Positions 2,588-31,002 of a stretch of 64,000 nucleotides of DNA are shown here, in pieces. How positions within the stretch are numbered: the first letter of the stretch is position 1; every line of letters begins with the position of its first letter. The translations under genes were made by a program, and so were the position numbers. Origin of the DNA: a virus; the IMG/VR virus record IMGVR_UViG_3300032245_000762, positions 1 through 64,000 of that record. One strand, written 5' to 3'. The notes beneath the pieces were generated by a model. That model saw only the letters and a list, made by a program, of their open reading frames with translations, did not search any database and had not been told where the DNA came from.

Positions 2588-2593
2588 TATAAT
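2585..2593 (+). promoter_or_regulatory. Extended -10 promoter of a leaderless gene
   Basis: TGcTATAAT at 2585-2593 with no clear -35. The predicted start site falls at ATG 2601, which decides that start codon over the upstream in-frame ATG 2592 that lies inside the promoter. Confidence 0.6.
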
Positions 2594-2600
2594 GACATAT

Positions 2601-3176
2601 ATGGAAAAAATATATCTAGACGAAAACATTTATTACATAGAAAATATATTGTCCTCAGAAGATTTAGCAATATTAGATCAGGACTGTAGAGATAAAGATT
2701 CCTGGGAAGAATTAAATGTTGGTTATGACCACTGGAAAAATAACGTAAAAGCATGTAGTCGTGAATCTAAAGAAGTTTTAGACAAATTAAAGGATATTGT
2801 AGAAAAAGAAATTGATACTAAAGATATGGTAATAAGTTTTAATAATAACTTATCTAGGTTTGTTCCTAATGATAATTTAGATATGGCAATGAACTATCAT
2901 CATGATGATTCTCAGCCACATACCCTTAGCGGATTAGTATTTTATATAAATGACGATTATAAAGGCGGAGAAATTCATTATAAAGAAAAAGATATATTAT
3001 GGAAACCAATTAAAAATAGTATTGTTTTTCATCCATCTTCAAAAGAGTATACTCATGGAGTAAAATCAATAAAAGATGGCCAAAGGTATATGCTAGCTAT
3101 GTTTGGATACGAAAGAGATTGGTTTGAAAATGATAGAGGGTCTTTGAACAAACATCTAGAAGGAAAAAATTATTAA
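2601..3176 (+). CDS. 2-oxoglutarate/Fe(II) oxygenase, prolyl 4-hydroxylase-like
   Basis: 191 aa from ATG 2601, chosen because the TATAAT box covers the earlier ATG 2592. It carries the double-stranded beta-helix core of the P4H family: metal ligands His100-x-Asp102 (HHD) and His152 (YTHGV), and 2OG-binding Arg162 (GQRYML). The internal signature FYINDDYKGGEI and the WKP turn are typical of phage and bacterial prolyl hydroxylases. Such enzymes use 2-oxoglutarate and oxygen to hydroxylate a peptidyl residue, commonly proline. It is transcribed alone, converging on a second such gene with a 3-base gap. Substrate unknown. Confidence 0.9.
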   Translation: MEKIYLDENIYYIENILSSEDLAILDQDCRDKDSWEELNVGYDHWKNNVKACSRESKEVLDKLKDIVEKEIDTKDMVISFNNNLSRFVPNDNLDMAMNYHHDDSQPHTLSGLVFYINDDYKGGEIHYKEKDILWKPIKNSIVFHPSSKEYTHGVKSIKDGQRYMLAMFGYERDWFENDRGSLNKHLEGKNY

Positions 3177-3179
3177 TTT

Positions 3180-3878
3180 TTAAAGATTATTGTATAGATT
3201 AAAGTATTTTTTTCTATATTCTGTAGGCCAAAAAAATGAAACTAGGTTATATCTATTTCCGCTCAAAACTTCATTGACTGAATGTGGAAAATCCATGGAT
3301 CCAGCAAAGAATATTAATGTGCCAGTTTTAGGCTTTAAAGACAGACCGTGATTTGGGAAAACAATTTCTCCACCAGTATATTCATTGTTTAAATACAATA
3401 ATCCTGAATAGTCTGATTCAAATCCTAGCTTATTTATTATTTCGTTGTTATGATTTGACGGAATAAACTCTGTTCCGTCTGGCTCATAGTTGTCATAATG
3501 TTCATTGAGTTTAGCTCCAGTAGCCATTTTGCTATAAAAAATAGATCTTGGATCAAGTTGAATATTATAATGTTCAGACATTGTTCTAGATATAGAATTG
3601 CAAATAGAGCTTAATAAATCTGATGCAATATTTTTTTCAACATTTTTAGTATAAGAATATATTGGATTTTTGTTGGCTATATGCCATGCTGTTTCTACTC
3701 CCTGATTTGGCCCGCCGTATATGCCAAAATTTTGAGTTTCTTTTAGCGTATCTTCAAAGTTTTTAATAATAAAATTGCAAGAGTCTTTTGAGATAAAATT
3801 TTCAATTATTATTGGGCTTGTTTTCAATTTTTTTCTTTTTCCAGAATAATAATTTTGCAAACTTAGCCTCAAATGCAC
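3180..3878 (-). CDS. 2-oxoglutarate/Fe(II) oxygenase, prolyl 4-hydroxylase-like
   Basis: Up to 232 aa from GTG 3878. A TTG at 3827, with GGAAAAAG just upstream, is an equally good start and would remove an unusual basic N-terminus. P4H motifs are complete: His127-x-Asp129 (HYDNYE), His199 (FPHSV), Arg209 (GNRYNL), with LYLNNEYTGGEIVFPNHG and LKPKTG between. It overlaps the 3' end of a 55-aa gene in the +1 frame by up to 77 bases, at an A7 run. That is either a true overlap or a frameshift that joins the two. It converges with the preceding oxygenase gene. Confidence 0.88.
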   Translation of the reverse strand: MHLRLSLQNYYSGKRKKLKTSPIIIENFISKDSCNFIIKNFEDTLKETQNFGIYGGPNQGVETAWHIANKNPIYSYTKNVEKNIASDLLSSICNSISRTMSEHYNIQLDPRSIFYSKMATGAKLNEHYDNYEPDGTEFIPSNHNNEIINKLGFESDYSGLLYLNNEYTGGEIVFPNHGLSLKPKTGTLIFFAGSMDFPHSVNEVLSGNRYNLVSFFWPTEYRKKYFNLYNNL

Positions 3879-6420: not shown

Positions 6421-8355
6421 ATGTCAAAAACAATTGAAAATCCATATGAAAACTTTATTGCATTATCAAGATATGCAAGATGGATTCCTGAAGAAAATCG
6501 TCGTGAAACATGGGGTGAAACTGTAGACCGTTATTTTGCATTTATGCTTGATCATTTATTTAAAGAGCACGGATATGAACCAGACTCGAAACTTGTTGCA
6601 GAATTAAAACAAGCAGTCCTTGATAGAAGCGTTATGCCATCAATGAGATCCGTAATGACTGCAGGTGCCGCATTGGATAGAGATCATGTTGCTGGATATA
6701 ACTGCTCATTTGTTCCAGTAGACAACCCAAGATCATTTGATGAAACAATGTATATTCTTATGTGTGGAACTGGAGTAGGATTTTCTGTTGAGTATAAGTA
6801 TGTTAATAAACTTCCTTCTATTCCAGATTCTTTTGAAAAGTCAGATACAGTAATTGTTGTAGAAGACTCAAAGCAGGGTTGGGCAAAGGCATATCGTGAA
6901 TTGCTAGCACTTCTTTGGACAGGACATATTCCAGCAATTGATGTTTCAAAAGTTCGTCCCGCAGGCGCAAGACTTAAAACAATGGGTGGAAGATCATCTG
7001 GCCCACAACCATTAATTAATCTTTTTGATTTTACAATTGCTAAATTTAAATCAGCAGCAGGTCGTCAATTAAAGCCAATTGAAGCTCACGATATTATGTG
7101 TAAGATTGGCGAAGTAGTTGTAGTTGGCGGAGTTCGTCGTTCAGCCATGATTTCTCTTTCAAATATTAATGATATAGAAATGGCTGCAGCAAAATCTGGA
7201 AATTGGTGGGAGCAAAATGCACAACGTGCTTTATCAAATAACTCTGTTGCGTATTCTCGCAAGCCACAAATGGAGCAATTTATAGCAGAATGGAAAAACC
7301 TTTATGACTCTAAATCAGGAGAACGTGGAATCTACAATGTCGCAGCAGCTCAAGCGCAAGCAGCAAAATATGGACGCAGAGACCCAGAAATTCATTATGG
7401 AACGAACCCTTGTTCAGAAATTATCCTCAGACCTTATCAGTTTTGTAATCTTTCAGAGGTGGTATTACGAGACAAAGATACAGTTGAAGATGTTGCAAAT
7501 AAAGTCCGACTTGCAACAATTCTTGGGACTTGGCAATCAACGCTCACAGACTTTAAGTATTTACGCAAAATCTGGAAAGACAACACAGAAGAGGAAAGAC
7601 TTCTAGGAGTTTCTTTAACTGGTCAATTTGGACACAAGTTTTTTTCTGGAAAACAAGATATTAAAAAACTAGAAGATACTTTAAATAGATTGCGTGAATA
7701 TGCTAGAGAAATGAACAAAGAAGAGGCTGGCAAAATTGGGATTCCAGAGTCTGCAGCTATTACATGCGTAAAGCCTTCAGGAACAGTATCTCAATTGGTC
7801 GGGGTGTCTTCAGGAATGCATCCATGGCATTCTGAATATTATATTAGAACAGTTCGTGGCTCTAAAGGAGATCCAATCTCTACATTTTTAAAAGAAGTTG
7901 GGATCCCAGTAGAAGATGATGTTATGAAGCCAAATGAAACATATGTATTTTCATTTCCAGTAAAAGCTCCACAAGGTGCAATTGTTAGAAATGATTTAAC
8001 AGCACTAGATCACCTAAACACTTGGTTAGTATATCAACGTGCATGGTGCGAACATAAACCATCAATTACGGTTTCCGTAAAAGAAGATGAATGGATGGCA
8101 GTAGGAGCATGGGTATATGAGCATTTTGATGAGGTTTCTGGAATTTCATTTCTGCCACATTCAGACCACACATATAAGCAGGCTCCGTATCAAGAAGTTT
8201 CTAAAGAAGAATACTTAGATTTGGTTTCTAAAATGCCAAAAGAAATTCGATGGTCAGACCTTTCTTTTTATGAAACAGAAGATGGCACTTCAACCAATGC
8301 AACATTGGCATGCAGTTCAGACGGTAACTGTGAACTAGTAGATATATCTGTTTAA
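6421..8355 (+). CDS. nrdJ: Adenosylcobalamin-dependent ribonucleotide reductase (class II)
   Basis: 644 aa, monomeric ribonucleoside-triphosphate-reductase type. It makes deoxynucleotides for phage replication. Active-site cysteines: Cys95 (AGYNCSF) and Cys342 as the redox pair, Cys331 as the thiyl radical in NPCSEI, with Asn329 and Glu333. The spacing Cys331 to Cys342 (11) equals that of the Lactobacillus enzyme. A C-terminal redox pair Cys631-x5-Cys637 closes the protein. It is about 95 residues shorter than the Lactobacillus enzyme. The host or medium must supply B12 coenzyme. The stop overlaps the next start (TAATG). Confidence 0.95.
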   Translation: MSKTIENPYENFIALSRYARWIPEENRRETWGETVDRYFAFMLDHLFKEHGYEPDSKLVAELKQAVLDRSVMPSMRSVMTAGAALDRDHVAGYNCSFVPVDNPRSFDETMYILMCGTGVGFSVEYKYVNKLPSIPDSFEKSDTVIVVEDSKQGWAKAYRELLALLWTGHIPAIDVSKVRPAGARLKTMGGRSSGPQPLINLFDFTIAKFKSAAGRQLKPIEAHDIMCKIGEVVVVGGVRRSAMISLSNINDIEMAAAKSGNWWEQNAQRALSNNSVAYSRKPQMEQFIAEWKNLYDSKSGERGIYNVAAAQAQAAKYGRRDPEIHYGTNPCSEIILRPYQFCNLSEVVLRDKDTVEDVANKVRLATILGTWQSTLTDFKYLRKIWKDNTEEERLLGVSLTGQFGHKFFSGKQDIKKLEDTLNRLREYAREMNKEEAGKIGIPESAAITCVKPSGTVSQLVGVSSGMHPWHSEYYIRTVRGSKGDPISTFLKEVGIPVEDDVMKPNETYVFSFPVKAPQGAIVRNDLTALDHLNTWLVYQRAWCEHKPSITVSVKEDEWMAVGAWVYEHFDEVSGISFLPHSDHTYKQAPYQEVSKEEYLDLVSKMPKEIRWSDLSFYETEDGTSTNATLACSSDGNCELVDISV

Positions 8356-18913: not shown

Positions 18914-19804
18914 ATGGCAGCAGGTAAAAAATCAGGTAGAAAGTCTCAGGCATCAAACGACTTTTTAGAGCCACAAGCAGTTACTGACCTAACAGGCACA
19001 GATGTTGGAGCATCACGTCCGTATTTATTAACAGCAAATACTACCTCTGAAGCATCTGCAGCAGGAACTGGTGGAGCAGTAGACTTAGCTTGGACTTTAC
19101 CAGCAAATTCTCCAGCAGCAACATCTTATACAATTACAACAACTCCTTCAACATATACAGAAATAACAGGAAATGCAAATACAACATATAGATTTCAAGG
19201 ATTAGCATCAGGAGTAAGTTACACATTTACAGTAGTAGGAACGAATGCAGCAGGATCTTCAATTGCAACAACTTCATTTTCTGTTACATCAACAACAGTT
19301 CCTCAAGCCCCACAATCTGTATCTGCAACAGCAGGAGTAGACGCAGATACCCTTGCTTGGAGTGCAGGAGCAACTGGTGGTAAAGCTATTTCAAGTTATT
19401 CTTGGACATCTTCAGATGGTAAATCAGCAACTGAAATATCTTCATCCCCAACTAACGTTAGCCAAGAAGCTAATACGACTCAAAACTATACTATTTATGC
19501 TTTAAATGACAATGGAACATCTTTAGGGTCTACAACTGAAGACGCAACAACTCTTCCACCGTCATTCTTTTCCCCACCATACTTCCCACCGTTCTTCCCA
19601 CCGTTTTTCCCACCTTACTTCCCACCATTTTTCCCACCTTACTTTCCACCTTATTTCCCACCGTTCTTCCCACCTTATTTCCCACCGTTCTTCCCACCGT
19701 TCTTCCCACCTTATTTTCCACCGTTCTTCCCACCGTTCTTCCCACCGTTCTTCCCACCGTTCTTCCCACCACGGTTCTTTTCCCCACCATTCTTTACTAG
19801 ATAG
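18914..19804 (+). CDS. Fibronectin-III protein with C-terminal (F/Y)FPP repeats
   Basis: 296 aa. Residues about 25-215 form two fibronectin type III-like beta sandwiches ([20 protein letters not shown]). From residue about 217 the chain is an almost pure repeat of FFPP/YFPP units ending [10 protein letters not shown]. Poly-Pro pairs alternating with aromatic pairs should give an extended, polyproline-II-like rod. The DNA is a matching run of TTCCCACC units. It lies just upstream of prolyl-hydroxylase-like genes, and a second protein with the same tail lies at 27.7 kb. Probably a virion surface protein. RBS AGGAGATAAAAAA. Confidence 0.85.
19558..19795. repeat. Tandem (F/Y)FPP-coding repeat
   Basis: Twelve-base units of the form CCACCGTTCTTC or CCACCTTACTTC repeat about 20 times. 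Only Phe/Tyr choice and third positions vary. A second copy of the array is at about 27898-28165. Confidence 0.9.
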
Positions 19805-19814
19805 CATTAAAATG

Positions 19815-19837
19815 AGTGGGGGCAAATAGCCCCCACT
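19815..19837 (+). terminator. Terminator-like hairpin after the fibre block
   Basis: 9-bp GC-rich stem AGTGGGGGC/GCCCCCACT with AAATA loop. No U-run: the next bases are the -35 of the following promoter, so it may be an insulator or pause site. Confidence 0.6.
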
Positions 19838-19838
19838 A

Positions 19839-19868
19839 TTGACAATCATTTATTAAAAATGATAGAAT
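19839..19868 (+). promoter_or_regulatory. Promoter of the modification island, leaderless
   Basis: -35 TTGACA (19839-19844), 18-base spacer, extended -10 TGaTAGAAT (19860s, box 19863-19868). ATG 19875 follows after six bases, with no Shine-Dalgarno sequence. Confidence 0.7.
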
Positions 19869-19874
19869 AACTAT

Positions 19875-20546
19875 ATGAATATAAATACAAAAAACTTTCA
19901 ATATTCTTCAAAAGAAGAATTATTTCCAGGCGTCTGGGTTTATAGAGATGTAATAAAACCAGAGTTTGATATTGTTAATAGACTTGAAAACACTATTAAA
20001 GAAAGTAATGGATTATATAATTGGGAAGAAGCAACTGTAGGTTATAAAGAAAAAATGCCTTCCTATCGTGACTGCGTAGATTTTAAAATTAATAAATTTG
20101 AAGCTCCAGAACAAGATCAGTATATGCAAGAATTTCAATCTATCTGGCAAGATGTTTATGACGCTCAAAAAGTAGCACTTGATGATTATTGTAAAATGTA
20201 TACTATCGAAATGAAATACTGGGAAGCCATGAATTTTATTAGATATGGCGAAGGTCAACATTTTCAAGAGCATGCAGATCACGGATGGTCTTATGTTGCC
20301 ACAGTATCAATGGTCGCTTATATAAATGATAATTATGAAGAAGGCGGATTAAATTTTGGAAAACTAAAACTAGATATAAAGCCAAAAGCAGGTGATCTTT
20401 ATGTATTCCCATCCACATTCTTGTTTTCTCATAGAGCAATGCCAGTTAAATCTGGAGTAAAGTATTCCATTGTAACTATGACAGATTATAACGATAAAGC
20501 GCACACACAAGCTTATAATAAGGCTACATACGAATCTAGGTCATAA
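19875..20546 (+). CDS. Prolyl 4-hydroxylase-like 2OG/Fe(II) oxygenase
   Basis: 223 aa, first gene of the island, probably leaderless. Metal ligands His133-x-Asp135 (EHADHG) and His186 (FSHRAMP). The 2OG carboxylate ligand position holds Lys196 (GVKYSI) rather than Arg. Lys is also used by animal collagen prolyl 4-hydroxylase. YINDNYEEGGLNF and IKPKAGDLYVFPS complete the fold. It should hydroxylate a peptidyl residue, most simply proline in one of the neighbouring proline-rich virion proteins. Substrate is inference from position. Confidence 0.9.
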   Translation: MNINTKNFQYSSKEELFPGVWVYRDVIKPEFDIVNRLENTIKESNGLYNWEEATVGYKEKMPSYRDCVDFKINKFEAPEQDQYMQEFQSIWQDVYDAQKVALDDYCKMYTIEMKYWEAMNFIRYGEGQHFQEHADHGWSYVATVSMVAYINDNYEEGGLNFGKLKLDIKPKAGDLYVFPSTFLFSHRAMPVKSGVKYSIVTMTDYNDKAHTQAYNKATYESRS

Positions 20547-21266
20547 TTGTTTACTGTTGATGCTTATAAAATTAGGCCAGATGCAGCAAATATAATACCA
20601 TTGTCTATTAAAAGAGAATGGATGGATGCAACTGTTGACTCTCATGCTTATAAATGTTTTCCAGTAAGTTTAACCAATGGTCTTGGCTGGGGGCTATCAT
20701 TTCCAGAAGATATTACTTTTATATGGGATGGGATTTCGGATACAACTCCAGATCATGTTAAAATTTTACAGGGCGAAAAATATGTTTATGCAGAAAGAGC
20801 AAATGCAACAATAAGTTTTAATACTGGATTGTTATTTAAAACAAAAGAAAATGTTAGCCTATTGCAAATGCCTGTCCCTAATTTTTTTAGAGATGGAGTT
20901 CAACCATTTACAACAATTATTAGCACATCATTTTTTAAAGGCGAACTGCCTTGCGCTTGGCGAATTACAAGGCCAAATGTAGAAATAACAATTAAAGCAA
21001 ATACACCTATTATTTCAATTATTCCTATATCATTAACCGATTTACAAAATTCAGAAATGCACATAAAAAAAGCTCAAGAGCTAGGTCCTAATTTTTTTAA
21101 AGATGGACCAGAATATTCTGAAGCAGTATCTGAAATAAATAAAAGTGGCAAATGGTCTAATTTCTATAGAGATGCAGTAAATCACTTAGGTAAATCAGTT
21201 GGGTCTCATGAAGTAAAAGCTTTAAGATTTAAAATAGTAGATGGGCCACAAGCCTGTGGCGAATAA
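20547..21266 (+). CDS. DUF6065-like protein of unknown function
   Basis: 239 aa, starting at TTG 20547 directly after the preceding stop; no ATG is near. Features are LTNGLGWGLSFPEDITFIWD, a middle with FNTGLLFKTKENVSLLQMPV and NFFRDGVQPFTTIIS, and ITIKANTPIISIIPISL, an all-beta layout resembling DUF6065 proteins found beside phage oxygenases. No catalytic residues are evident. The next gene has the same order of segments and appears to be a distant paralogue. It is within the oxygenase operon, so a role in the same modification is likely but unspecified. Confidence 0.7.
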   Translation: MFTVDAYKIRPDAANIIPLSIKREWMDATVDSHAYKCFPVSLTNGLGWGLSFPEDITFIWDGISDTTPDHVKILQGEKYVYAERANATISFNTGLLFKTKENVSLLQMPVPNFFRDGVQPFTTIISTSFFKGELPCAWRITRPNVEITIKANTPIISIIPISLTDLQNSEMHIKKAQELGPNFFKDGPEYSEAVSEINKSGKWSNFYRDAVNHLGKSVGSHEVKALRFKIVDGPQACGE

Positions 21267-21981
21267 AATTATTTTTCATTCTAATAAAAGTTATAATAAA
21301 ATAGATGATGAATTTTCTCCAGCACCTGCTGCAAAAGTAGTTCCAAAATGGTATATGGATGCAGATCTTTACGCTAAAGACCCAAGAAATGGAAAATTTA
21401 TTCCAAATTATGACGGAGGAAAACTTCCAACATTTAGAGCGTGTCCAGCAATTTTAGATATGTTTACTACAGGATATATTTTACAAACCCCTTGCGATTT
21501 AGAATTTTATAAAGAAGGAAATACTCCAAAGGTAAAAGTTCCTAAAACACATAGAGATTTTTGTGATTCTCGTCCCCCAATGCCACAATTTGTTTATCCT
21601 TCAGGATATGAAAAACATCATTTTCACTGGTGGCCTAACTGGGCTCCGTCTTTGCCAGAAGGTTATAGCGCATTATATGTAAACCCATTAAATAGCTTTG
21701 ACTTACCATTTTTGACCGTAGCTGGTATAATAGATAACGATAAGTTTAATACTCCAGGTCTAATGCCATTTTTTATTAGAGAAGGATTTGAAGGTGTAGT
21801 TAAAGCTGGCACACCATTTGTTCAAATTATTCCTTTTAAAAGAGAAGATTGGGAAATGGAATTAAAATTTCATACTCAAGAAGAATTATTAGAAAGACAT
21901 AAGCAAAGTGCTGATACTTTTAGAAAGCCAGATGGCGGAGTATATAAAAAAAGTTTTTGGACTCGCAGAAAGTATAAATAG
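21256..21981 (+). CDS. DUF6065-like paralogue, unknown function
   Basis: 241 aa from GTG 21256 (MANKIIFHSNKSYN after initiation). The longer ATG 21241 form would overlap the previous gene more. It shares with its upstream neighbour a DUF6065-like order: TTGYILQTPCDLEFYKEG, NPLNSFDLPFLTVAG, FFIREGFEGVVKAGTPFVQI. It has a His/Trp-rich strip KHHFHWWPNWAP (residues about 120-131) that could bind metal or sugar. The C-terminus is basic. The gene pair is sandwiched between oxygenase genes. Confidence 0.7.
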   Translation: MANKIIFHSNKSYNKIDDEFSPAPAAKVVPKWYMDADLYAKDPRNGKFIPNYDGGKLPTFRACPAILDMFTTGYILQTPCDLEFYKEGNTPKVKVPKTHRDFCDSRPPMPQFVYPSGYEKHHFHWWPNWAPSLPEGYSALYVNPLNSFDLPFLTVAGIIDNDKFNTPGLMPFFIREGFEGVVKAGTPFVQIIPFKREDWEMELKFHTQEELLERHKQSADTFRKPDGGVYKKSFWTRRKYK

Positions 21982-21989
21982 GAGATAAA

Positions 21990-22673
21990 ATGCAAAGAGT
22001 AGCAGTTAATCAAGAAGATCCATCTAAAGGGCCACAATCAATAATTCCTTCTGGGTATTTTGGTAATTCACCAGACAATATTGTAGAACTTAAAAACTTT
22101 TTAACACCAGAAGAGCAAAAAACTCTTTCAGATTTTGCATTAAATAATACAATTTGGGATCACACAGAAGGCAAAAAAAATGAAAATGGAACTGTTATTT
22201 ATGATGCAGATGTTTGGGCAGATAGAGTTGCAACTAGAAATTCTTTAATGCTTTCTGATCCAACAATTCTTCCACTAATTGAATCTATGCAATCTAGACT
22301 AAAAGTAGAAGTAGATAAATTTTTTAATGTAGATGTTCAGGCAACAGGACCAGCAATAGTAAGATGGCCAATAGGCACAAGACAAGAACCACATGCTGAT
22401 AAAGAATTACACGAAGGTCCAGATGCAGGCCTGCCCAACGCATTCCCTTGGTATGATATTGCATCAATATTTTATTTTAATGACAATTATGAAGGTGGAG
22501 AAATTTATTTTCCAATTCAAGGATTAGAATATAAACCAAAAGCTGGATCTGCATATTTTTTCCCAGGAGACATGAATTATGTTCATGGAGTTAGACCAAT
22601 TATTTCTGGAAGCAGATTTACCTCCCCATTTTTTTGGACAGTAAAACAAACATTTAGGGATCAAAATGGATAA
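21990..22673 (+). CDS. Prolyl 4-hydroxylase-like 2OG/Fe(II) oxygenase
   Basis: 227 aa with AGGAGAT before ATG 21990. A complete active site: His135-x-Asp137 (PHADKE), His199 (YVHGVRP) and Arg209 (GSRFTSPFFW). FYFNDNYEGGEIYFP and YKPKAGSAYFFPG are textbook P4H core strands. It overlaps the next gene by 8 bases. Of the island's oxygenases it is the most canonical. Likely peptidyl-prolyl hydroxylation; target unproven. Confidence 0.92.
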   Translation: MQRVAVNQEDPSKGPQSIIPSGYFGNSPDNIVELKNFLTPEEQKTLSDFALNNTIWDHTEGKKNENGTVIYDADVWADRVATRNSLMLSDPTILPLIESMQSRLKVEVDKFFNVDVQATGPAIVRWPIGTRQEPHADKELHEGPDAGLPNAFPWYDIASIFYFNDNYEGGEIYFPIQGLEYKPKAGSAYFFPGDMNYVHGVRPIISGSRFTSPFFWTVKQTFRDQNG

Positions 22674-23496
22674 CATTATAGAAGAAGAGTTTTACCCTAA
22701 AATTATAGTATATAAAAATTTACTTACAGATCCTAAAAAAGCCGTAGATATATTAAAACGTGCTGAAGAAGATCCATCTAAAAGCTTATTTATTGGATGG
22801 TCTGACTGGTATACGTTTGGCACAAATTGCGATTTGTTTGAAATATCATATGAAAGAGATGGAGAATTTAAAGTCATTTCAAATAAAATTGAAACAGAAC
22901 AGCATCAAGAAGAATATGATTTTTTCAAAGAAGTTATATCAGCATTTTTTAAATCAACAGAAACTTACATGAAAAAGTATAGTTTAAAAAAACCAGCAGA
23001 TTGGTTTTATATGGGACCCTCATTTTGTAAATATAATGCAGATGCAGGAATTACAGAAGATTTAGCTATGCATTATCATAGCGACTTTCAATTAGAACAT
23101 ATTGAAAAGCCAGGTCATAAATTTGCAATTACATGCACAATGTATTTTAATGATGACTACGAAGATGGCGGAGTAGATTTTTTAGTAAATAATAAATTAA
23201 TATATTATAAACCAACAGCTGGAGACGTTATGGTATTTCCAGCAGGAAATCCAGATATTTTAACCGAAAATGGAGAAAGATATTATCATGGAGTAAAAAA
23301 ATGTAAAAATAATCCAAAATATTTTGTTAGAATGAACTGGGTTTATCATTACTATGGATCAGAAAAATGGCATGAGGGCATAGAAAAATATGGTGAGCAG
23401 TTATGGCTAGAAATGGATGAAGAACGTAGAAACACTGAAAGAAAAACAGGAATGTATCATGTAGAGCCAAATTCAGAAACGGTTAGGATAAAATGA
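22666..23496 (+). CDS. 2OG/Fe(II) oxygenase, longer variant
   Basis: 276 aa. Ligands His138-x-Asp140 (HYHSDFQ) and His208 (YYHGVKK); Lys218 or Arg222 (KYFVRMNW) is the probable 2OG anchor. MYFNDDYEDGGVDFLVNN and YKPTAGDVMVFPAG align with the family. It is longer than its neighbours, with an extended N-terminus and a charged C-terminal helix (LEMDEERRNTERKTG), so it may see a different substrate or partner. Starts and ends overlap neighbouring genes, indicating coupled expression. Confidence 0.88.
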   Translation: MDNIIEEEFYPKIIVYKNLLTDPKKAVDILKRAEEDPSKSLFIGWSDWYTFGTNCDLFEISYERDGEFKVISNKIETEQHQEEYDFFKEVISAFFKSTETYMKKYSLKKPADWFYMGPSFCKYNADAGITEDLAMHYHSDFQLEHIEKPGHKFAITCTMYFNDDYEDGGVDFLVNNKLIYYKPTAGDVMVFPAGNPDILTENGERYYHGVKKCKNNPKYFVRMNWVYHYYGSEKWHEGIEKYGEQLWLEMDEERRNTERKTGMYHVEPNSETVRIK

Positions 23497-24212
23497 ATTT
23501 AAACAATAAAGTAGTTCTTAGAGAAGATATTGTATTATTTGAAAACTTTTTAACTGAAGAAGAGTGTCAAAATGTTTTAAAATATTGGGAGCACTCAGTA
23601 GAAAAAGGTAGTCTTCCATGGAGTCCAATCTCTTTTTATGAATCCTATGCATCTAATTTGCCAGATGATGAAGACATGATTAAATTTGGACTCCCCAGAG
23701 ATTTTTTTACTAATTTAGAAATAAAAATTCAAGAAGCAACTGCAATTGCAAGAGGCGGAGATGTTAAGAAAGTTAGCTATCACGCACAAAAATGGATCCC
23801 AGGAGCGTTTGCTAATTTTCATTCTGACAATAGCAGTAATGGAGAATACAATGCTTTTGAAAGAAGTAAATGGGCAACATTTTTGTATTTAAATGATAAT
23901 TTTACTGGAGGAGCTTTAAATTTCAAAGATCATCCAATTACCGTTCAGCCTAAAACAGGAATGCTAGCAGCATTTGCAGGGGGTCATCATAATGAGCATG
24001 AAGTTCAAATTGTAAAGTCTGGAGACAGATATACTATAGGTTCATTCTGGGATTATGCTGAATCTGAATATAGCGATGAAAAAAAAGCGCAATGGGAAAA
24101 AGAAATTGCAGAAGTAAGGGCCGAGCAAGATGTTCAATTTAAAGAATGGGAAGTTATGAGAGAAAAAGGAATAGCGGTAGAGCCTAGAAAATATGAAGAG
24201 GAAGTCGAATAA
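23493..24212 (+). CDS. Prolyl 4-hydroxylase-like 2OG/Fe(II) oxygenase
   Basis: 239 aa. Complete ligand set His110-x-Asp112 (FHSDNS), His169 (NEHEVQ), Arg179 (GDRYTIGSFW). LYLNDNFTGGALNF and VQPKTGMLAAFAGG give the core. The C-terminal about 50 residues form a charged helix rich in Glu and Lys. It starts 4 bases inside the previous gene, and its stop overlaps the next ATG. A functional enzyme is expected. Confidence 0.9.
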   Translation: MNLNNKVVLREDIVLFENFLTEEECQNVLKYWEHSVEKGSLPWSPISFYESYASNLPDDEDMIKFGLPRDFFTNLEIKIQEATAIARGGDVKKVSYHAQKWIPGAFANFHSDNSSNGEYNAFERSKWATFLYLNDNFTGGALNFKDHPITVQPKTGMLAAFAGGHHNEHEVQIVKSGDRYTIGSFWDYAESEYSDEKKAQWEKEIAEVRAEQDVQFKEWEVMREKGIAVEPRKYEEEVE

Positions 24213-24880
24213 TGAAAATTAATATATTAGAAGACAACATAATCCATTTTGAAGATATTATTGAAGATCCTAAACATTTAGTAGATTTAATTGAAAAAAC
24301 AGAACTTAATGACAAAGAAATTAATCTAGTAACTAAATGGAGAACATGGAACTCATCAGTAATTGAAGAAGATGAAGATTTAAATAAACATTCATATGGA
24401 ATGCAAAAGTTTTTTAATCCTCAAGAATTAAAAAACTTTCAAGAAAACGAAGCTTTGGATGCAAAATATATTATTAAAACAATGAAAGATGCAACCAGAG
24501 TAGCTTGCTTTGAGTATAGAAAAATTAAGCAAATAAATGAAAAAATATTTATTTATCCAAATTTTAGTATTAATAAATATAAAACTGGAGCAATGATGGG
24601 TCCACATGCAGATACAAATGATGGAGATAAAACTTTAAGATTTTCTTTAGTTACATATTTAACCGATAATCATGGTGGCGGAGAATTAGAATTTCCTAAT
24701 CATAATATAAAAATTAAGCCAAAAGCTGGTAGTGTAATTATGTTTCCTTCTGATCAGCCATATCTTCATATTTCTCATGAAGTAACTGATGGTTGGAAAT
24801 ATATGTCCCCATCCTTTTGGTTAAATGATCCTTCAAAAGTTGGAGTTTCAATATCAGATGTAGAGGAGTATGATGTTTAG
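24212..24880 (+). CDS. Prolyl 4-hydroxylase-like 2OG/Fe(II) oxygenase, Lys variant
   Basis: 222 aa. His132-x-Asp134 (GPHADTN), His189 (ISHEVT) and Lys196 (GWKYMSPSFW) in place of Arg, as in the first oxygenase of the island. TYLTDNHGGGELEFPNHN and IKPKAGSVIMFPSD are typical. It overlaps the next, degenerate paralogue by 11 bases. The two share IKIKP-AGSV and PSFW blocks and look like a duplicated pair, one of which has lost its metal ligands. Confidence 0.9.
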   Translation: MKINILEDNIIHFEDIIEDPKHLVDLIEKTELNDKEINLVTKWRTWNSSVIEEDEDLNKHSYGMQKFFNPQELKNFQENEALDAKYIIKTMKDATRVACFEYRKIKQINEKIFIYPNFSINKYKTGAMMGPHADTNDGDKTLRFSLVTYLTDNHGGGELEFPNHNIKIKPKAGSVIMFPSDQPYLHISHEVTDGWKYMSPSFWLNDPSKVGVSISDVEEYDV

Positions 24881-25412
24881 ACCAGAGTTTCATGGTAATG
24901 ATATATGTCATTTTGCCGATTCATTATCTGAACCAAAATTATTAATAGATTATATTAATAAAACGGAAGATTTAATAGAAACTCAAGATGTAATCTCATT
25001 GTGGGAAAACAATGTAAAAAGTGTTACAGCAGAAGGCATAGAAATAACAAATCCAAAGTCTCTTTATATTGTAAATAGCGTATATTCAGGCATGATGTTT
25101 TGCTCTAATATGTATAAAGAAATGAAGAATATAGATAAAGAAGTTAAAATATCTAAAAATTTCAAAATTAATAGGCATACATCTTCTCAAGAATTACAAT
25201 ACAATGATAATTATTCTATAGCACAAAATGTTGTTTTAGCATTTTTAAATGATGATTATCAAGGTGGAGAAATTAATTTTATAAAACAAAATATTAAAAT
25301 AAAGCCACAAGCGGGTAGCGTTTTAGCATTTCCTTCTTCTGCAGAATTTCAATACATATATGAGCCTATAGTTTATGGAACAAGATATTTAATTCCAAGT
25401 TTTTGGACGTAA
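24870..25412 (+). CDS. Degenerate oxygenase paralogue lacking metal histidines
   Basis: 180 aa. It aligns with the preceding oxygenase through FLNDDYQGGEINF, IKIKPQAGSVLAFPS and GTRYLIPSFW. However, the HAD motif is replaced by Tyr111-Asn-Asp113 and the distal His by Tyr164 (YIYEPI). Both iron-binding histidines are therefore gone while Asp113 and the 2OG-site Arg172 remain. It is probably not a conventional Fe(II) oxygenase. It could be a pseudoenzyme subunit of its neighbour, a binding protein, or a decaying copy. Frame and coupling are intact, which argues for a retained function. Confidence 0.8.
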   Translation: MMFRPEFHGNDICHFADSLSEPKLLIDYINKTEDLIETQDVISLWENNVKSVTAEGIEITNPKSLYIVNSVYSGMMFCSNMYKEMKNIDKEVKISKNFKINRHTSSQELQYNDNYSIAQNVVLAFLNDDYQGGEINFIKQNIKIKPQAGSVLAFPSSAEFQYIYEPIVYGTRYLIPSFWT

Positions 25413-25416
25413 TAAA

Positions 25417-26520
25417 TTGTTTAATCAAGAACCTATGGTATTCCATGTCGTAGGGTTGCCTCATACGCAAACTACTAAAGAGTTTACTAGTTGTGCTTTT
25501 ACAGCTAAAGTAATAGGTTTTTGCAAAATGATGAAATCTTTAGGTCATACAGTTTATTTATATGCTGGAGAAAAAAATACTACTGTGTGCGATGAATTAA
25601 TTACATGTATTACAGAAGAACAAAGACAAGAAAGTTTAAATGGCGGTCATTATACTACCGCTAAATTTGACTCATCTTTACCAAGTTGGCAAACCTTTAA
25701 CAATAATGCTATTAAAGAAATTAAAAAAAGAATATCTAAAAAAGATTTTATTTGTTTTATAGGAGGAGTTTGTCACAAGCCAATAGCCGATCAATTCCCA
25801 TCACACATATCTGTAGAATTTGGAATAGGTTATGGGGCAACTTTTGCAAAATATAGAGTATGGGAATCTTATGCATGGATGCATTCGCAATATGCTTCAT
25901 ACAATGATCCAACTGCAGTTAACGGAATGTTTTTTGATGAAGTTATACCAGGATATATTGACGAAAATGACTTTACTTTTCAAAATACAAAATCAGATTA
26001 TTATTTATATTTAGGAAGATTAATTGATAGAAAAGGTTATAATATAGCAGTAGAAGTCTGTAAAAAATTAAATAAAAGATTGATTATTGCTGGTCCAGGA
26101 AATCCTCCAGAATACGGAGAATATGTTGGTATTGTGGGAGTAGAAGAAAGATCAAAATTAATGAGCAAAGCAATTGCTTTATTTGCACCAACATTATACC
26201 TAGAGCCATTTGGAAACATAGTTCCAGAAGCTCATTTTTGTGGAACACCAACAATTACTACAGATTGGGGAGCATTTACAGAAACAAATACTAATGGCGT
26301 GACTGGTTATAGATGTAGAAGTTTTCAGGAATTTTGTGATGCAACAGAATTAGTTAAATCATTAGATCCTACGTTAATTAGAAATCGTGCAATAAATAAC
26401 TATTCATTAAATGCTACGTCTCCAAAATATGACAAATATTTTAGAAGACTTTTGACACTATGGGAAGATGGATGGTATACATTAAATAACCCTTATAAAA
26501 TTGAAAGTGGTATAATTTAA
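25417..26520 (+). CDS. GT4-family glycosyltransferase
   Basis: 367 aa from TTG 25417; ATG 25435 ([14 protein letters not shown]) is an alternative start and better matches family N-termini. The donor-binding half contains [27 protein letters not shown] and [20 protein letters not shown], with the E-x7-E sugar-nucleotide motif, so it is a retaining GT-B enzyme. The island position points to glycosylation of virion proteins, possibly downstream of hydroxylation. The donor sugar is not readable. The next gene's promoter overlaps its stop codon. Confidence 0.88.
26508..26516 (+). promoter_or_regulatory. Extended -10 promoter of the collagen-like gene
   Basis: TGgTATAAT immediately before and abutting the GT4 stop codon. 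ATG 26523 lies six bases after the -10, so the message should be leaderless. Confidence 0.6.
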
Positions 26521-26522
26521 AA

Positions 26523-27656
26523 ATGAGTAACTTTACCGCTAAAAATTTTAGATATCCAACTCTTGATATGTCACCAGATATTCCAAGAGATATGAGTTTA
26601 TTGGCTCAAGATATAGATGATTATTTAACGGCAAATCCTGGCCCATCAGGTCCAACTGGCCCATCAGGTCCAACTGGTTTAACTGGAAATCCTGGGGTAG
26701 ATGGTGTTACAGGTGCAACTGGACCAACAGGGCCAACTGGTCCAACAGGACCACAAGGTGCAACTGGCGCAACTGGAGCTAAAGGAGATACTGGAGATAC
26801 TGGAGTAACAGGTCCAACTGGAGCTAAAGGAGATACTGGAGCAACAGGTCCTTCTGGACCATCAGGACCAACTGGTGCAACAGGTCCATCAGGACCAACT
26901 GGTGCATTAGGGCAAACTGGATTGCAAGGAAATGAAGGGCCAACAGGAGCAACTGGTCCATCAGGCCCATCTGGTCCATCTGGTGCAACTGGTCCAACAG
27001 GACCACAAGGTGCAACTGGTGCAACTGGTCCAACGGGTCCACAAGGACCAACGGGACCACAAGGAACTTCAATAACATTTAAAGGAACAGTTGCAACTAC
27101 TTCCAATTTACCTGTTTCTGGAAATTCAATAAATGATGCATATGTAGTTAGTGCAGATGGAAACTTATATGTTTGGGGTGGATCAGCTCCATGGAATAAT
27201 ATTGGTTCAATTGTTGGACCATCTGGTGCAAGCGGATCACAAGGACCAACTGGTCCATCAGGACCAAGTGGAGCACAAGGAATTCAAGGATCTACAGGTC
27301 CATCAGGACCATCTGGGCCATCAGGTCCATCTGGTCCAGCAGGAATAGATTCAACTGGATTATATGTAATAAATCCACAATCAACTAGCTATACATTATC
27401 ATCTTTAGATTTTAATGAATTAATAGAAATGTCTAATGGTGGAGTCGTTACAGTTCCTGCAGATTCAATAGTATTTGCAATAGGATCTACTGTAGATATT
27501 TTACAAACTGGATCATCACAAGTTAGTGTTACTGGAGCATCTGGAGTTACTGTAAATGGGTCACCAGGATTAAAATTAAGATCTCAATGGTCATCTGGAA
27601 CATTAATTAAGCGTGGCGCAAATACTTGGGTTTTAATTGGAGACTTGAGCTCATAG
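26523..27656 (+). CDS. Collagen-like virion protein with fibre C-terminal domain
   Basis: 377 aa. Two Gly-X-Y tracts (residues about 38-180 and 232-272), mostly GPT, GPS, GAT and GPQ, are separated by a fibre spacer ([20 protein letters not shown]). They should form a collagen triple helix. Pro is mainly in the X position and Thr/Ser in Y; Y-position Thr is a known glycosylation site in bacterial collagen-like proteins. The last 95 residues ([16 protein letters not shown] ... [21 protein letters not shown]) repeat the C-terminus of the 896-aa fibre. Expressed among oxygenases and glycosyltransferases, it is a prime candidate substrate. Confidence 0.9.
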
Positions 27657-27657
27657 A

Positions 27658-28170
27658 ATGGTAAAAATACTTGGGAGTAGAAGTGGCAATAGAAAAGTTA
27701 CTGTTCCTGATTTAAATAATTTATTAAGATCAGAGGCAATTAATTTGCTTACTACTAAAAAATTAAAATATACAGAAGCATCAAGTTCAACAAGTAACTC
27801 AGAATTATCTGATAAAGTTTATCAACAGAATATTGCCGCAGAAACATTAGTTATTGCTGGAACAACAATTTCTTTTGAATATTATACATATACTGCTCCA
27901 CCGTTCTTTCCACCTTACTTCCCACCTTACTTCCCACCGTTTTTCCCACCGTTCTTCCCACCTTACTTTCCACCGTTCTTCCCACCTTACTTTCCACCTT
28001 ATTTCCCACCGTTTTTTCCACCTTACTTTCCACCGTTTTTTCCACCTTACTTCCCACCTTATTTTCCACCGTTTTTTCCACCTTACTTCCCACCGTTTTT
28101 CCCACCGTTCTTCCCACCTTACTTTCCACCGTTTTTTCCACCATTTTTCCCACCGTTTTTTACTAGGTAA
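27658..28170 (+). CDS. PASTA-domain protein with C-terminal (F/Y)FPP repeats
   Basis: 170 aa. Residues about 12-75 (VTVPDLNNLLRSEAINLLTT ... ISFEYYTY) form one PASTA domain, a fold that binds peptidoglycan stem peptides or muropeptides in bacterial kinases. From residue 79 the chain is FFPP/YFPP repeats ending PPFFTR, the same tail and terminus as the FN3 protein at 18.9-19.8 kb. This suggests a cell-wall-binding virion protein carried on a polyproline rod. It follows the collagen-like gene by one base. Confidence 0.85.
   Translation: MVKILGSRSGNRKVTVPDLNNLLRSEAINLLTTKKLKYTEASSSTSNSELSDKVYQQNIAAETLVIAGTTISFEYYTYTAPPFFPPYFPPYFPPFFPPFFPPYFPPFFPPYFPPYFPPFFPPYFPPFFPPYFPPYFPPFFPPYFPPFFPPFFPPYFPPFFPPFFPPFFTR
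27898..28165. repeat. Tandem (F/Y)FPP-coding repeat, second array
   Basis: About 22 twelve-base units of the same type as at 19558-19795, with both genes ending in the same PPFFTR codons. Gene conversion or recombination between arrays about 8.3 kb apart is possible. Confidence 0.9.
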
Positions 28171-28193
28171 TACTTTAAAAATAAAGGATATTT

Positions 28194-30041
28194 ATGTCAT
28201 ATAAATTAAATGTAGTTAAAGATAACCCGCTAGCCTTTTGGTTATTAGATGATTTATCTATTAGACCACTCCTTGATTATCAAGGAATTTTAAATGAATT
28301 TAATACATATTTAGAATTAAAACAAGCGTATACAACCTATGGAAATATTAATTATATTACTCATGATGTTGTAGGTTTTAATGATGGAAATTATGATGGC
28401 GATTTTGAATATGAACCACATACATTTCCATTAGTTTCTGGTGGGATATATCCAGTTAACATTTATGAAAATAGAAAATTTTATTTTGATAGATTAAAAT
28501 CATTTGATGGCATAGAATTAGATGCATGTTTTGGAACAATATATAATCAATTTTCACCATTTACAATTGAAGGATGGGTTTTACCTAATATATTAAGTGA
28601 AGAAATTACAACAATTTTTGCAGATCCAATAAACTCAGTAGGAATATTTTGGCAAAAAAATAAAATAATTTTTAAATTATCTTTAAATTCAATTAGTTAT
28701 TATTTACCATATTCAGATAAATCTAATTACATAGTTTGTTCTTTTGATGGGAAAAAAGCAAAAATTTATATTGATGCTAAACTAGTAATTGAAAAAGAAA
28801 TTCCTATAAATACTTTTGATAATAATGATCTTATTTTACAATGTGGACCAGTAAATAATGAAATTGATTCATTTATTGTAGACAATTTTGCAATATATAC
28901 ATATGCTTTATCTCAATTACAAATAACTAATCATTTTGAAGACTATGGATATAAAATACCTATACAGGTTGTTTCGCCAGACAACGGAGAGCTTTTTGAA
29001 TTTTATGATAATAAAATAAATACAGTTTTTGAATATAGTTATCCTTATAATAAAAGCTGGGAAAGCTTTTTAACAGAAGATATTTATTATAATAGAATAG
29101 AAAACTACATATCTTTAAATCAAACATCTGATTTACAAACTAAAGAGGTTATTATAGAGGACTCTATTGTTTTGCCATCTGGAACAAATATGGACTCTTC
29201 TAAAATTGAATGGTATGGAATTAATGGAATTTCTATTCAATCTAGTATTGATGGAATTAATTATTTAAATTGTGAAAATGGACAATCAATACCTCAGTAT
29301 AAAATTGATGATTTTAGTGAAGACAGAGTGTTGTATTTAAAAATTATTATTAATTCTGAAGATACATCTCAAGACTTACCAATATTAAGCAACTTATCTG
29401 TTTCGTTTTTTAATAATAAAATTTTATATTCTAAAAATGGCTCCAGCTATTTGTCTAAAATAGAAAATTTAGATTGGTTTTTAGGAAAAGAAAATTTGCC
29501 AATATTGTCTCACGATAAAAAAAATGGTTTATTAGTTCCAGAAAATTCTGGATTTAAAATAAATACAGAATATTTAACAAGCTCTATTGAATTTTTTTAT
29601 ACTGGCAATATTACAACGTCAGGAAAGTTAATTTTTACTGAAGAAGATGGGGACGGGTATGCTTCTAATTATAGCTGGGATGCTAGTGGAACAATCAGTA
29701 AAAATAATATACAATCAATTTATGTTAATGGAGTAGATCATACATCTGCTACAAACATATCTGATTTAATTCCAAATAATTTAACTAAACATATTGTCAT
29801 AGTTTTTACTAATCCAGTTTATGGTAGTTTAATTTTTAATTACAATAGTTTAGGAAATGATTCAGGACTATACCAATATTTGTCTTTATATAGAATAAAG
29901 TTTGATTATAATAAAATCAAAAATCATTATGATTTATATATTGGTAATTATGAAAATATAATTCATGATTCAAGAATTTCAATTTCAGAAAATTCAATAT
30001 CGCACTACAATAATGACTGGATAGTTATTCAAAATGTTTAA
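28194..30041 (+). CDS. LamG/concanavalin-like adhesin
   Basis: 615 aa. Residues about 105-250 (SPFTIEGWVLPNILSEE ... YIVCSFDGKKAKIYIDAKLV ... IDSFIVDNFAIYTYALSQLQ) are a LamG/concanavalin-like jelly roll, a frequent carbohydrate-binding domain of phage tail proteins. A second beta domain (residues about 290-400) and a third C-terminal beta domain follow. AT-rich even by the standard of this genome. RBS AAAGGATATTT. The last 8 bases overlap the GlcNAc-transferase gene. Probably a minor tail or decoration protein that binds glycans. Confidence 0.75.
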   Translation: MSYKLNVVKDNPLAFWLLDDLSIRPLLDYQGILNEFNTYLELKQAYTTYGNINYITHDVVGFNDGNYDGDFEYEPHTFPLVSGGIYPVNIYENRKFYFDRLKSFDGIELDACFGTIYNQFSPFTIEGWVLPNILSEEITTIFADPINSVGIFWQKNKIIFKLSLNSISYYLPYSDKSNYIVCSFDGKKAKIYIDAKLVIEKEIPINTFDNNDLILQCGPVNNEIDSFIVDNFAIYTYALSQLQITNHFEDYGYKIPIQVVSPDNGELFEFYDNKINTVFEYSYPYNKSWESFLTEDIYYNRIENYISLNQTSDLQTKEVIIEDSIVLPSGTNMDSSKIEWYGINGISIQSSIDGINYLNCENGQSIPQYKIDDFSEDRVLYLKIIINSEDTSQDLPILSNLSVSFFNNKILYSKNGSSYLSKIENLDWFLGKENLPILSHDKKNGLLVPENSGFKINTEYLTSSIEFFYTGNITTSGKLIFTEEDGDGYASNYSWDASGTISKNNIQSIYVNGVDHTSATNISDLIPNNLTKHIVIVFTNPVYGSLIFNYNSLGNDSGLYQYLSLYRIKFDYNKIKNHYDLYIGNYENIIHDSRISISENSISHYNNDWIVIQNV

Positions 30042-31002
30042 TGAAAAAACTATATATATAGGCATGCCTTCATACAACGAACCATATCTAGAAATGACAA
30101 TAAAAGAATGTTTTGAAAAAGCAGAGTTTCCAGATAGAATACACATGGGAGTTTGGTCACATAATAGCGATGGGAAAGATGCTCATTTTTTAAAAGAATA
30201 TAAAAACGTTAACTATGCTCAGCTTTACTATCCCATAGGATTTGGAACTGGATCAGCCAGACTTAATGCTTTAAATTTTTATAATGAAGAGGATTTTTAT
30301 TTACAAATTGATCCACACATGATATTTGCAGAAAATTGGGATACTAGATTAATAGAATTATTTTATGAATTAAAAGAAAAATATGAAAAACCAGTCATAT
30401 CTACTTTTGTGCCATACTGGTATATGTCTAAAGGAGAAATTAAATATGGCGGTGGAGATGAATGCACTAAAATATACTGGATGACAGATATTCTTAAAAC
30501 ACAATGTCCTACATTTGGCGGAGGCCCTAAAACCTGGGAAGACGGAGAAACCTATCAAGAACACTATTTAACCAGTGGACATTTTATGTTTACAGAAAAA
30601 GAGTTTTTAAATGATTTTTTGCCAGACGTAAATATATTATTTGAAGGAGAAGAGCCATGCCTATCAATTAGAGCCTGGACTAGGGGATATAGATTCTTTA
30701 CTCCAAGAGAGATATTAATGTGGCATTTTGATAGATACCATGAAGACTCTGACGACTTATATGAATTTGATAGAGTTAAAGGTCCTCAAGCGTGGGTCCC
30801 ACAATGGATGATAGATCATGATGATTATAGATATGATAAAGCAATGAAAAGAGTAAGGAAAATTTTAACTGGAGAGTATATAGGACACTGGGGTGCTCCC
30901 AGCAGAGAGCTTTTGTCCAAATATGAGACAGAAGCAGGGGTAGATTTTAAAAAATTCTACCAAGAACGTGACGAATTTTTAAAAAATAATACATTGTCCT
31001 GA
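30034..31002 (+). CDS. GlcNAc-transferase family enzyme (PF11397-like)
   Basis: 322 aa. Order of motifs: TIYIGMPSYNEPYLEMTIKE, FPDRIHMGV, GSAR (73-76), FYLQIDPHMIFAENWD with metal-binding Asp93-Pro-His95, LTSGHFMFTE, FEGEE (203-207) and TRGY (216-219), ending near His231. This matches the GT-A family that includes Dictyostelium Gnt1, which adds GlcNAc to hydroxyproline of Skp1. Here it closes an island of prolyl-hydroxylase-like genes, so glycosylation of hydroxyproline on virion proteins is a reasoned hypothesis. It overlaps the LamG gene by 8 bases. Confidence 0.82.
   Translation: MFNEKTIYIGMPSYNEPYLEMTIKECFEKAEFPDRIHMGVWSHNSDGKDAHFLKEYKNVNYAQLYYPIGFGTGSARLNALNFYNEEDFYLQIDPHMIFAENWDTRLIELFYELKEKYEKPVISTFVPYWYMSKGEIKYGGGDECTKIYWMTDILKTQCPTFGGGPKTWEDGETYQEHYLTSGHFMFTEKEFLNDFLPDVNILFEGEEPCLSIRAWTRGYRFFTPREILMWHFDRYHEDSDDLYEFDRVKGPQAWVPQWMIDHDDYRYDKAMKRVRKILTGEYIGHWGAPSRELLSKYETEAGVDFKKFYQERDEFLKNNTLS

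Follow-up and report, generated by a model that had tools for sequence, protein, structure and literature searches.

A stretch of 64,000 of the 68,110 bases of the IMG/VR virus record IMGVR_UViG_3300032245_000762 (hereafter the window) encodes, between positions 18914 and 31002, two virion-type proteins with aromatic-proline repeat (ARO) tails and an array of prolyl 4-hydroxylase (P4H)-like oxygenases accompanied by proteins of the DUF6065 type. Here we report that ARO proteins and P4H/DUF6065 arrays are coupled in many uncultured aquatic phage lineages, and that the P4H-like enzymes are likely to hydroxylate prolines of the ARO tails. Genes are referred to below by their start positions in the window, and those of the island are listed in Table 1.

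ARO tails and P4H-like genes are coupled in phage genomes

Using a single pipeline and DNA scans of IMG/VR, we assembled public phage loci into four sets, each selected in a different way, and a control set. A gene counted as ARO when it encoded five or more [FYW][FYW]x(0-2)PP units (four or more in the sets selected by P4H or by the glycosyltransferase GT60), and as P4H-like when its product gave a match with E <1e-5 to a hidden Markov model (HMM) grown from the P4H-like proteins of the window. Among loci selected by FPP-coding DNA that were at least 8 kb long and contained an ARO open reading frame (ORF), 39 of 49 carried a P4H-like gene, which lay within 2 kb in 37; of the 59 FPP-selected loci that had such a gene, 50 had the nearest one on the downstream side, in the same orientation. 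When whole contigs of at least 30 kb were considered, the Pfam family PF13640 was found in 27 of 31 FPP-selected contigs, usually in at least five copies, compared with 2 of 27 control contigs selected by collagen-coding DNA, each with a single copy (Fisher p 7e-10). A P4H-like gene was likewise present in 3 of 67 collagen-selected loci of at least 8 kb. Given the scarcity of PF13640 in the collagen-selected contigs, the clustering of these genes in the window is not a chance arrangement.

Of 46 loci selected by a P4H of the 19875 type and offering enough room, 42 had an ARO repeat on the same strand no more than 5 kb upstream (median distance 1.3 kb); among the remaining four, L507 carries a variant aromatic-proline tail immediately before the P4H. 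The P4H nearest to ARO was closest to 19875 of the window in 112 of 137 cases. In relatives of a neighbouring tail gene, chosen regardless of ARO or P4H content, ARO with room downstream was followed by a P4H-like gene, and loci without ARO had none. Locus L413, at first sight the single exception as an array lacking ARO, was rejected as such, its FPP frame having been hidden by an antisense ORF. A first-pass annotation, made from the window sequence alone, had pointed to co-occurrence of these families in other phages as a check and had suspected that the FPP repeats might be better substrates than the collagen-like tract; in the contig and locus counts above, it is the FPP repeats, and not the collagen-like tract, that are linked to the P4H-like genes.

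Tail type and enzyme set change together

Among 38 relatives recovered through the portal protein, ARO and an array of at least four P4H-like genes occurred together in 15 and were both absent from 23, with no mixed case. On the portal tree, ARO and array each change six times, on identical branches. L047 and L051 were left out of this count; they had been considered as arrays without ARO, which was rejected because their loci begin within the array.

Homologues of the fibronectin-type FN3 protein 18914 provide a comparison within one scaffold. Distinct homologues with FFPP or FFxPPx tails and room downstream were followed by a P4H-like gene in 75 of 76 cases, and homologues with glycine-rich tails by none. 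A third tail, built of FGFTPFGFTP repeats, is found on 18914-type FN3 scaffolds in L210 (8675-9961), L440 (8741-10117) and their kin. Here DUF6065-type genes come first, with other enzymes between, and never a P4H; in those FGFTP loci that reach far enough, P4H-like genes are present after the DUF6065 genes and the other enzymes. Downstream of the L210 and L440 genes we found DUF6065, other proteins, a weakly GT60-like protein, a P4H and a short-chain dehydrogenase/reductase (SDR). Nothing argues more strongly for the enzymes serving the tail than this joint exchange of tail and enzyme set inside a single scaffold. Whether the principle is general is a more tentative matter: we lean slightly against, while taking seriously, the idea of a modular surface chemistry in which a single FN3 scaffold gene, always at the same position of the virion operon, can be fitted with various repeat tails (FFPP/FFxPPx, FGFTP or glycine-rich), each with its own modifying enzymes and swapped jointly between lineages.

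The oxygenases might instead belong to an exchangeable tail cassette and yet have their target elsewhere, for example in a further virion protein, a protein on the host surface or a host factor resembling EF-Tu. The P4Hs of Pseudomonas putida and Bacillus anthracis, which act on or bind EF-Tu, are indeed among the structural and sequence neighbours of 19875, and other genes for virion proteins move together with this region. However, within one scaffold the enzyme set can be predicted from nothing more than the type of tail, and the neighbouring collagen-like and LamG genes do not need the array; we therefore regard a target outside the tail as unlikely.

The oxygenases are predicted to resemble peptidyl-prolyl hydroxylases

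The iron-binding HxD..H triad of 19875 (H133, D135 and H186) and the basic residue that binds the 2-oxoglutarate (2OG) carboxylate (K196) are invariant across 67 relatives. Nearly all full-length P4H-like relatives keep the HxD..H motif, and the 2OG-binding position across all P4H-like matches is R in 362, K in 337 and a gap in 49. The array of the window holds five intact copies and one degenerate paralogue, in agreement with the four to five plus one counted at first pass; the degenerate gene, 24870, may represent either recent decay or a pseudoenzyme.

The AlphaFold2 model of 19875 (predicted local distance difference test score, pLDDT, 94) has a double-stranded beta-helix fold that is predicted to lie nearest to peptidyl-prolyl hydroxylases. 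Its first Foldseek match was vCPH of chlorella virus PBCV-1 (PDB 5c5t, E 3e-10), then PHD2, with further matches to the P. putida P4H in complex with EF-Tu (4iw3), a Dictyostelium PHD and algal Cr-P4H1 bound to a (Ser-Pro)5 peptide. The nearest solved proteins by sequence were B. anthracis P4H structures (5hv0/3itq, E 4e-7).

The ARO repeats are as rich in Phe and Tyr as in Pro, and the presence of five to eight paralogues hints at several chemistries, so that the enzymes could modify tail residues besides proline (Phe, Tyr or others) or carry out another oxidation such as a cross-link. We consider this quite improbable, given that the nearest solved folds are peptidyl-prolyl hydroxylases and that the PP pair is what FFxPPx and FFPP repeats have in common.

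A role on nucleic acids or small molecules, in DNA repair or demethylation or in host 2OG balance, has been proposed for cyanophage 2OG oxygenases (PMC3037559). The cultured cyanophage relatives of 19875 are indeed about 27% identical to it, and in the three cyanophage loci examined the oxygenase genes lie among replication and repair genes; in addition, the two oxygenase genes outside the array (2592 and 3180) show weak Tet_JBP similarity. For the array, such a role is highly improbable: its context is one of virion genes, it is coupled to an ARO tail, and the predicted fold is nearest to prolyl hydroxylases.

ARO proteins and a putative surface-protein modification cassette

The ARO repeat unit is (F/Y)FPP in the window and FFxPPx in relatives. 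Several synonymous codons are used within the repeats, which indicates that the protein sequence is what is kept. In many relatives the ARO tail is followed by a Hint-like domain, detected by weak Pfam matches (PF14890, E 5e-5, and PF13403), which is absent from both ARO copies of the window. Examples of this Hint/intein-like C-terminus, which ends in HN plus K or a short tail, are L235:3897-5216, L410:9180-10613 and L423:8841-10124. The Hint part weakly matches virion proteins of Erwinia and Dickeya jumbo phages, and it could cleave the ARO tail or attach it covalently.

No FN3-ARO relative was found in the cultured-phage collection by BLAST, whose low-complexity filter hides the repeat itself. 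A search of 84,980 bacterial species genomes for FPP-repeat stretches returned four (L445, L446, L447 and L448), of which L447 is probably a chance match and the other three probably phage-derived, judging by their appearance. The ARO genes of these three lie on 'Verrucomicrobiales' and 'Gammaproteobacteria' metagenome-assembled genome (MAG) contigs that resemble phage contigs, and L445 also carries P4H-like and DUF6065-like genes.

From these observations we propose that 18914-25412 together with ARO2 (27658) forms a surface-protein modification cassette. Its structural member would be an FN3 or PASTA virion-type protein with a C-terminal aromatic-proline tail, whose prolines would be hydroxylated, most likely in the cytoplasm and either ahead of virion assembly or while it proceeds, by the dedicated P4H-like 2OG/Fe(II) dioxygenase encoded beside ARO and by its paralogues, which may share out positions within the repeat. 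PP-rich peptides tend towards polyproline helices, and 4-hydroxylation stabilises them. Hydroxylation would stabilise an extended, polyproline-type form of this PP-rich and otherwise very hydrophobic tail, rendering it soluble or adhesive; since the tail consists of little else than Phe, Tyr and Pro, a gain in polarity would be expected as well. In some phages the resulting hydroxyl groups might be used by a glycosyltransferase.

Several points weigh against tail hydroxylation. The samples consist of the strongest or first matches rather than random draws, and come from IMG/VR contigs that include some near-duplicates. Four of the 31 FPP-selected contigs lack PF13640, although these may be fragments. 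Of the six independent pairs that the portal tree provides, just three stand on well-supported branches, so that a sign test alone is not significant and the tree by itself is suggestive. The structural matches of 19875 are only 14-20% identical to it, and the same fold class also hydroxylates residues other than proline. A functional link, moreover, is not proof of an enzyme-substrate relation, as another virion protein exchanged together with the tail could be the target. Finally, tail hydroxylation offers no explanation for five or more paralogues.

DUF6065 proteins are regular partners of the array

DUF6065 genes usually accompany the array, in one to three copies, and also occur without it in FGFTP loci, in some portal relatives and in the haloarchaeal virus HF2. 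They were traced with a two-sequence model, an iterated HMM having been dropped when it drifted into the P4Hs. The AlphaFold2 model of 21241 (pLDDT 94.9) had dUTPase and dCTP deaminase structures as its top PDB matches in Foldseek (probability 1.00, best E 3.7e-3, template modelling (TM) score about 0.3 by query length). A Pfam dUTPase match to the DUF6065 protein was not found, and an hhalign comparison of DUF6065 with just two phage dUTPase-family proteins gave a probability of 0.3%. DUF6065 was not assigned as a dUTPase on these grounds, the resemblance being one of fold only, at a low TM score, and the profile comparison giving no confirmation; a dUTPase/dCTP-deaminase-like fold is a weak lead from the model.

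The collagen-like gene and GT60 are not regular partners of the P4H-like genes

The first-pass annotation had proposed a hydroxyproline-modification island for phage surface proteins. Its link between P4H-like genes and proline-rich, virion-type FPP proteins held; its link to the collagen-like protein was not supported, and that to GT60 was not supported as a rule. Of the 63 triplets in the collagen-like tract (26523), 33 have proline at X and a single one has it at Y, confirming an earlier caution on its position. Together with the collagen control this led us to reject the tract as a P4H substrate. Among portal relatives, GT4 genes of the phrog_3408 family directly precede a collagen-like gene, mostly in phages that lack P4H, and about a dozen loci show this order, so that GT4 and collagen look like a second structural-protein/enzyme cassette.

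In Dictyostelium, Skp1 is modified by P4H and then by the GT60 enzyme Gnt1, and a similar series, placing GlcNAc on fibre hydroxyproline, had been suggested for the phage. It would add to tail hydroxylation, not replace it. Both families are present in the window, and P4H-like genes occur in 26 of 67 GT60-selected loci, well above the 3 of 67 in the collagen control. Yet no more than 5 of the 49 ARO records had GT60, compared with 1 of the 50 collagen records (p = 0.11), 40 of the 67 GT60-selected loci had neither P4H nor ARO, and the close relatives L228 and L229 carry GT60 but no P4H. GT60 as an obligate partner of P4H was not upheld, and we think it distinctly unlikely that the window encodes such a series, which may operate in certain phages without being general. 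The GT60 loci were collected with an eight-sequence alignment; a scan with the single GT60 of the window gave no matches. Within this set (L533-L612), several loci that have P4H but no FFPP tails encode other proline-rich proteins, among them arrays of six or seven P4H-like genes (L540 and L563), which suggests additional tail types.

With the collagen-like gene going with GT4 and GT60 a sporadic neighbour, the island comprises two or three cassettes lying side by side rather than one pathway.

Gene content of the window

Family searches against Pfam and PHROG recovered the gene set of the first-pass annotation near its proposed positions, including the two further hydroxylase-like genes at 2.6-3.9 kb. 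All genes of 18914-31002 are on the plus strand, with spacing of at most 70 bases or small overlaps, between a tail-fibre-type gene (16203) and the portal gene (31383). The claim that enzymes and candidate substrates are interleaved and co-expressed holds for strand and spacing; co-expression is something we only infer from this layout. In relatives, synteny shows the array closed by the LamG gene.

Table 1. Genes of the 18914-31002 island and the two outlying oxygenase genes, with the evidence for each.
Feature	Position	Strand	Evidence
ARO1, proposed substrate: FN3 virion-type protein whose C-terminal tail has 16 (F/Y)FPP units and ends in PPFFTR	18914..19804	+	PF00041 E 1.9e-8; repeat and codon counts
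P4H-like oxygenase of the type adjoining the ARO gene; HxD..H..K intact	19875..20546	+	PF13640 E 2.5e-13
DUF6065 protein 1	20547..21266	+	PF19541 E 7.7e-32
DUF6065-like protein 2	21241..21981	+	phrog_7084 E 4.9e-35
P4H-like oxygenase 2, intact motif	21990..22673	+	PF13640 E 1.8e-6
P4H-like oxygenase 3, intact motif	22666..23496	+	PF13640 E 9e-5, below Pfam cut-off
P4H-like oxygenase 4, intact motif	23493..24212	+	PF13640 E 2.4e-9
P4H-like oxygenase 5, intact motif, basic residue K	24212..24880	+	PF13640 E 3.5e-12
Degenerate P4H paralogue, both iron-binding His lost	24870..25412	+	PF13640 E 5e-4, below cut-off; alignment
GT4 glycosyltransferase	25417..26520	+	phrog_3408 E 4.9e-90
Collagen-like tail protein	26523..27656	+	PF01391 E 1.2e-28
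ARO2, also a proposed substrate: PASTA-domain protein whose C-terminal tail has 21 (F/Y)FPP units and ends in PPFFTR	27658..28170	+	PF03793 E 1.8e-7
LamG/concanavalin-like virion-type protein	28194..30041	+	PF13385 E 1.4e-9
GT60 glycosyltransferase	30034..31002	+	PF11397 E 2e-26
Extra P4H-like oxygenase outside the array	2592..3176	+	PF13640 E 6.2e-7
Extra P4H-like oxygenase outside the array	3180..3878	-	PF13640 E 4.8e-10

The window has a GC content of 33.5%, and its portal protein is at most 57% identical to those of Streptomyces phages such as BillNye (Stanwilliamsviridae). This likeness marks it as a tailed phage, possibly of Actinobacteria; WhiB, sought as a host marker, was not found in the record. 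Elsewhere, a B12-dependent-type ribonucleotide reductase is encoded at 6421-8355, preceded by a second GT4 gene (5355) and followed by an NAD-dependent epimerase (8355).

Comparison with known systems

Prolyl-hydroxylase-fold oxygenases are common in aquatic phages, where 2OG/Fe(II) oxygenases have been described without a known substrate; published views of their role range from cryptic to guesses at DNA repair or at signalling of nitrogen status (PMC9301287, PMC3037559, PMC12774648); EGLN3-like folds have been reported in marine phages (PMC12774648). A precedent for viral prolyl hydroxylation, as referenced in PMC9301287, is the P4H of chlorella virus PBCV-1 (Eriksson et al. 1999). With this enzyme, vCPH, 19875 has in common the viral P4H fold and motif, and vCPH is its top structural match. 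PBCV-1 is a eukaryotic giant virus with a single such enzyme, for which proline-rich repeats in the virus's proteins have reportedly been suggested as the target; we know of no repeat-coupled gene array or DUF6065 partner for it. The bacterial P4Hs of B. anthracis and P. putida provide the nearest solved sequences and folds, and to our knowledge they are cellular enzymes that do not occur in virion operons.

Cyanophage 2OG-Fe(II) oxygenases of PHROG 61 are matched by 19875 (phrog_61, E 1e-23) at 27% identity, but their genes are found among those for replication and repair and not beside ARO tails. The Dictyostelium pair of Skp1 P4H1 and Gnt1 has both its families represented in the window, although in phages the two are not regular partners. 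As in phages with collagen-like fibres, the island encodes a collagen-like protein, but one with proline almost never at Y, and collagen-selected phage contigs are nearly free of PF13640.

Compared with these systems, the dedicated P4H arrays, their aromatic-proline repeat partner and the co-swapping of both are new. One large set of phage prolyl-hydroxylase-like enzymes now has a specific, sequence-defined partner, and the question of what phage prolyl hydroxylases hydroxylate becomes answerable by a single experiment. If our interpretation is correct, bacteriophage virions undergo post-translational proline hydroxylation, with tails and enzymes exchanged as units.

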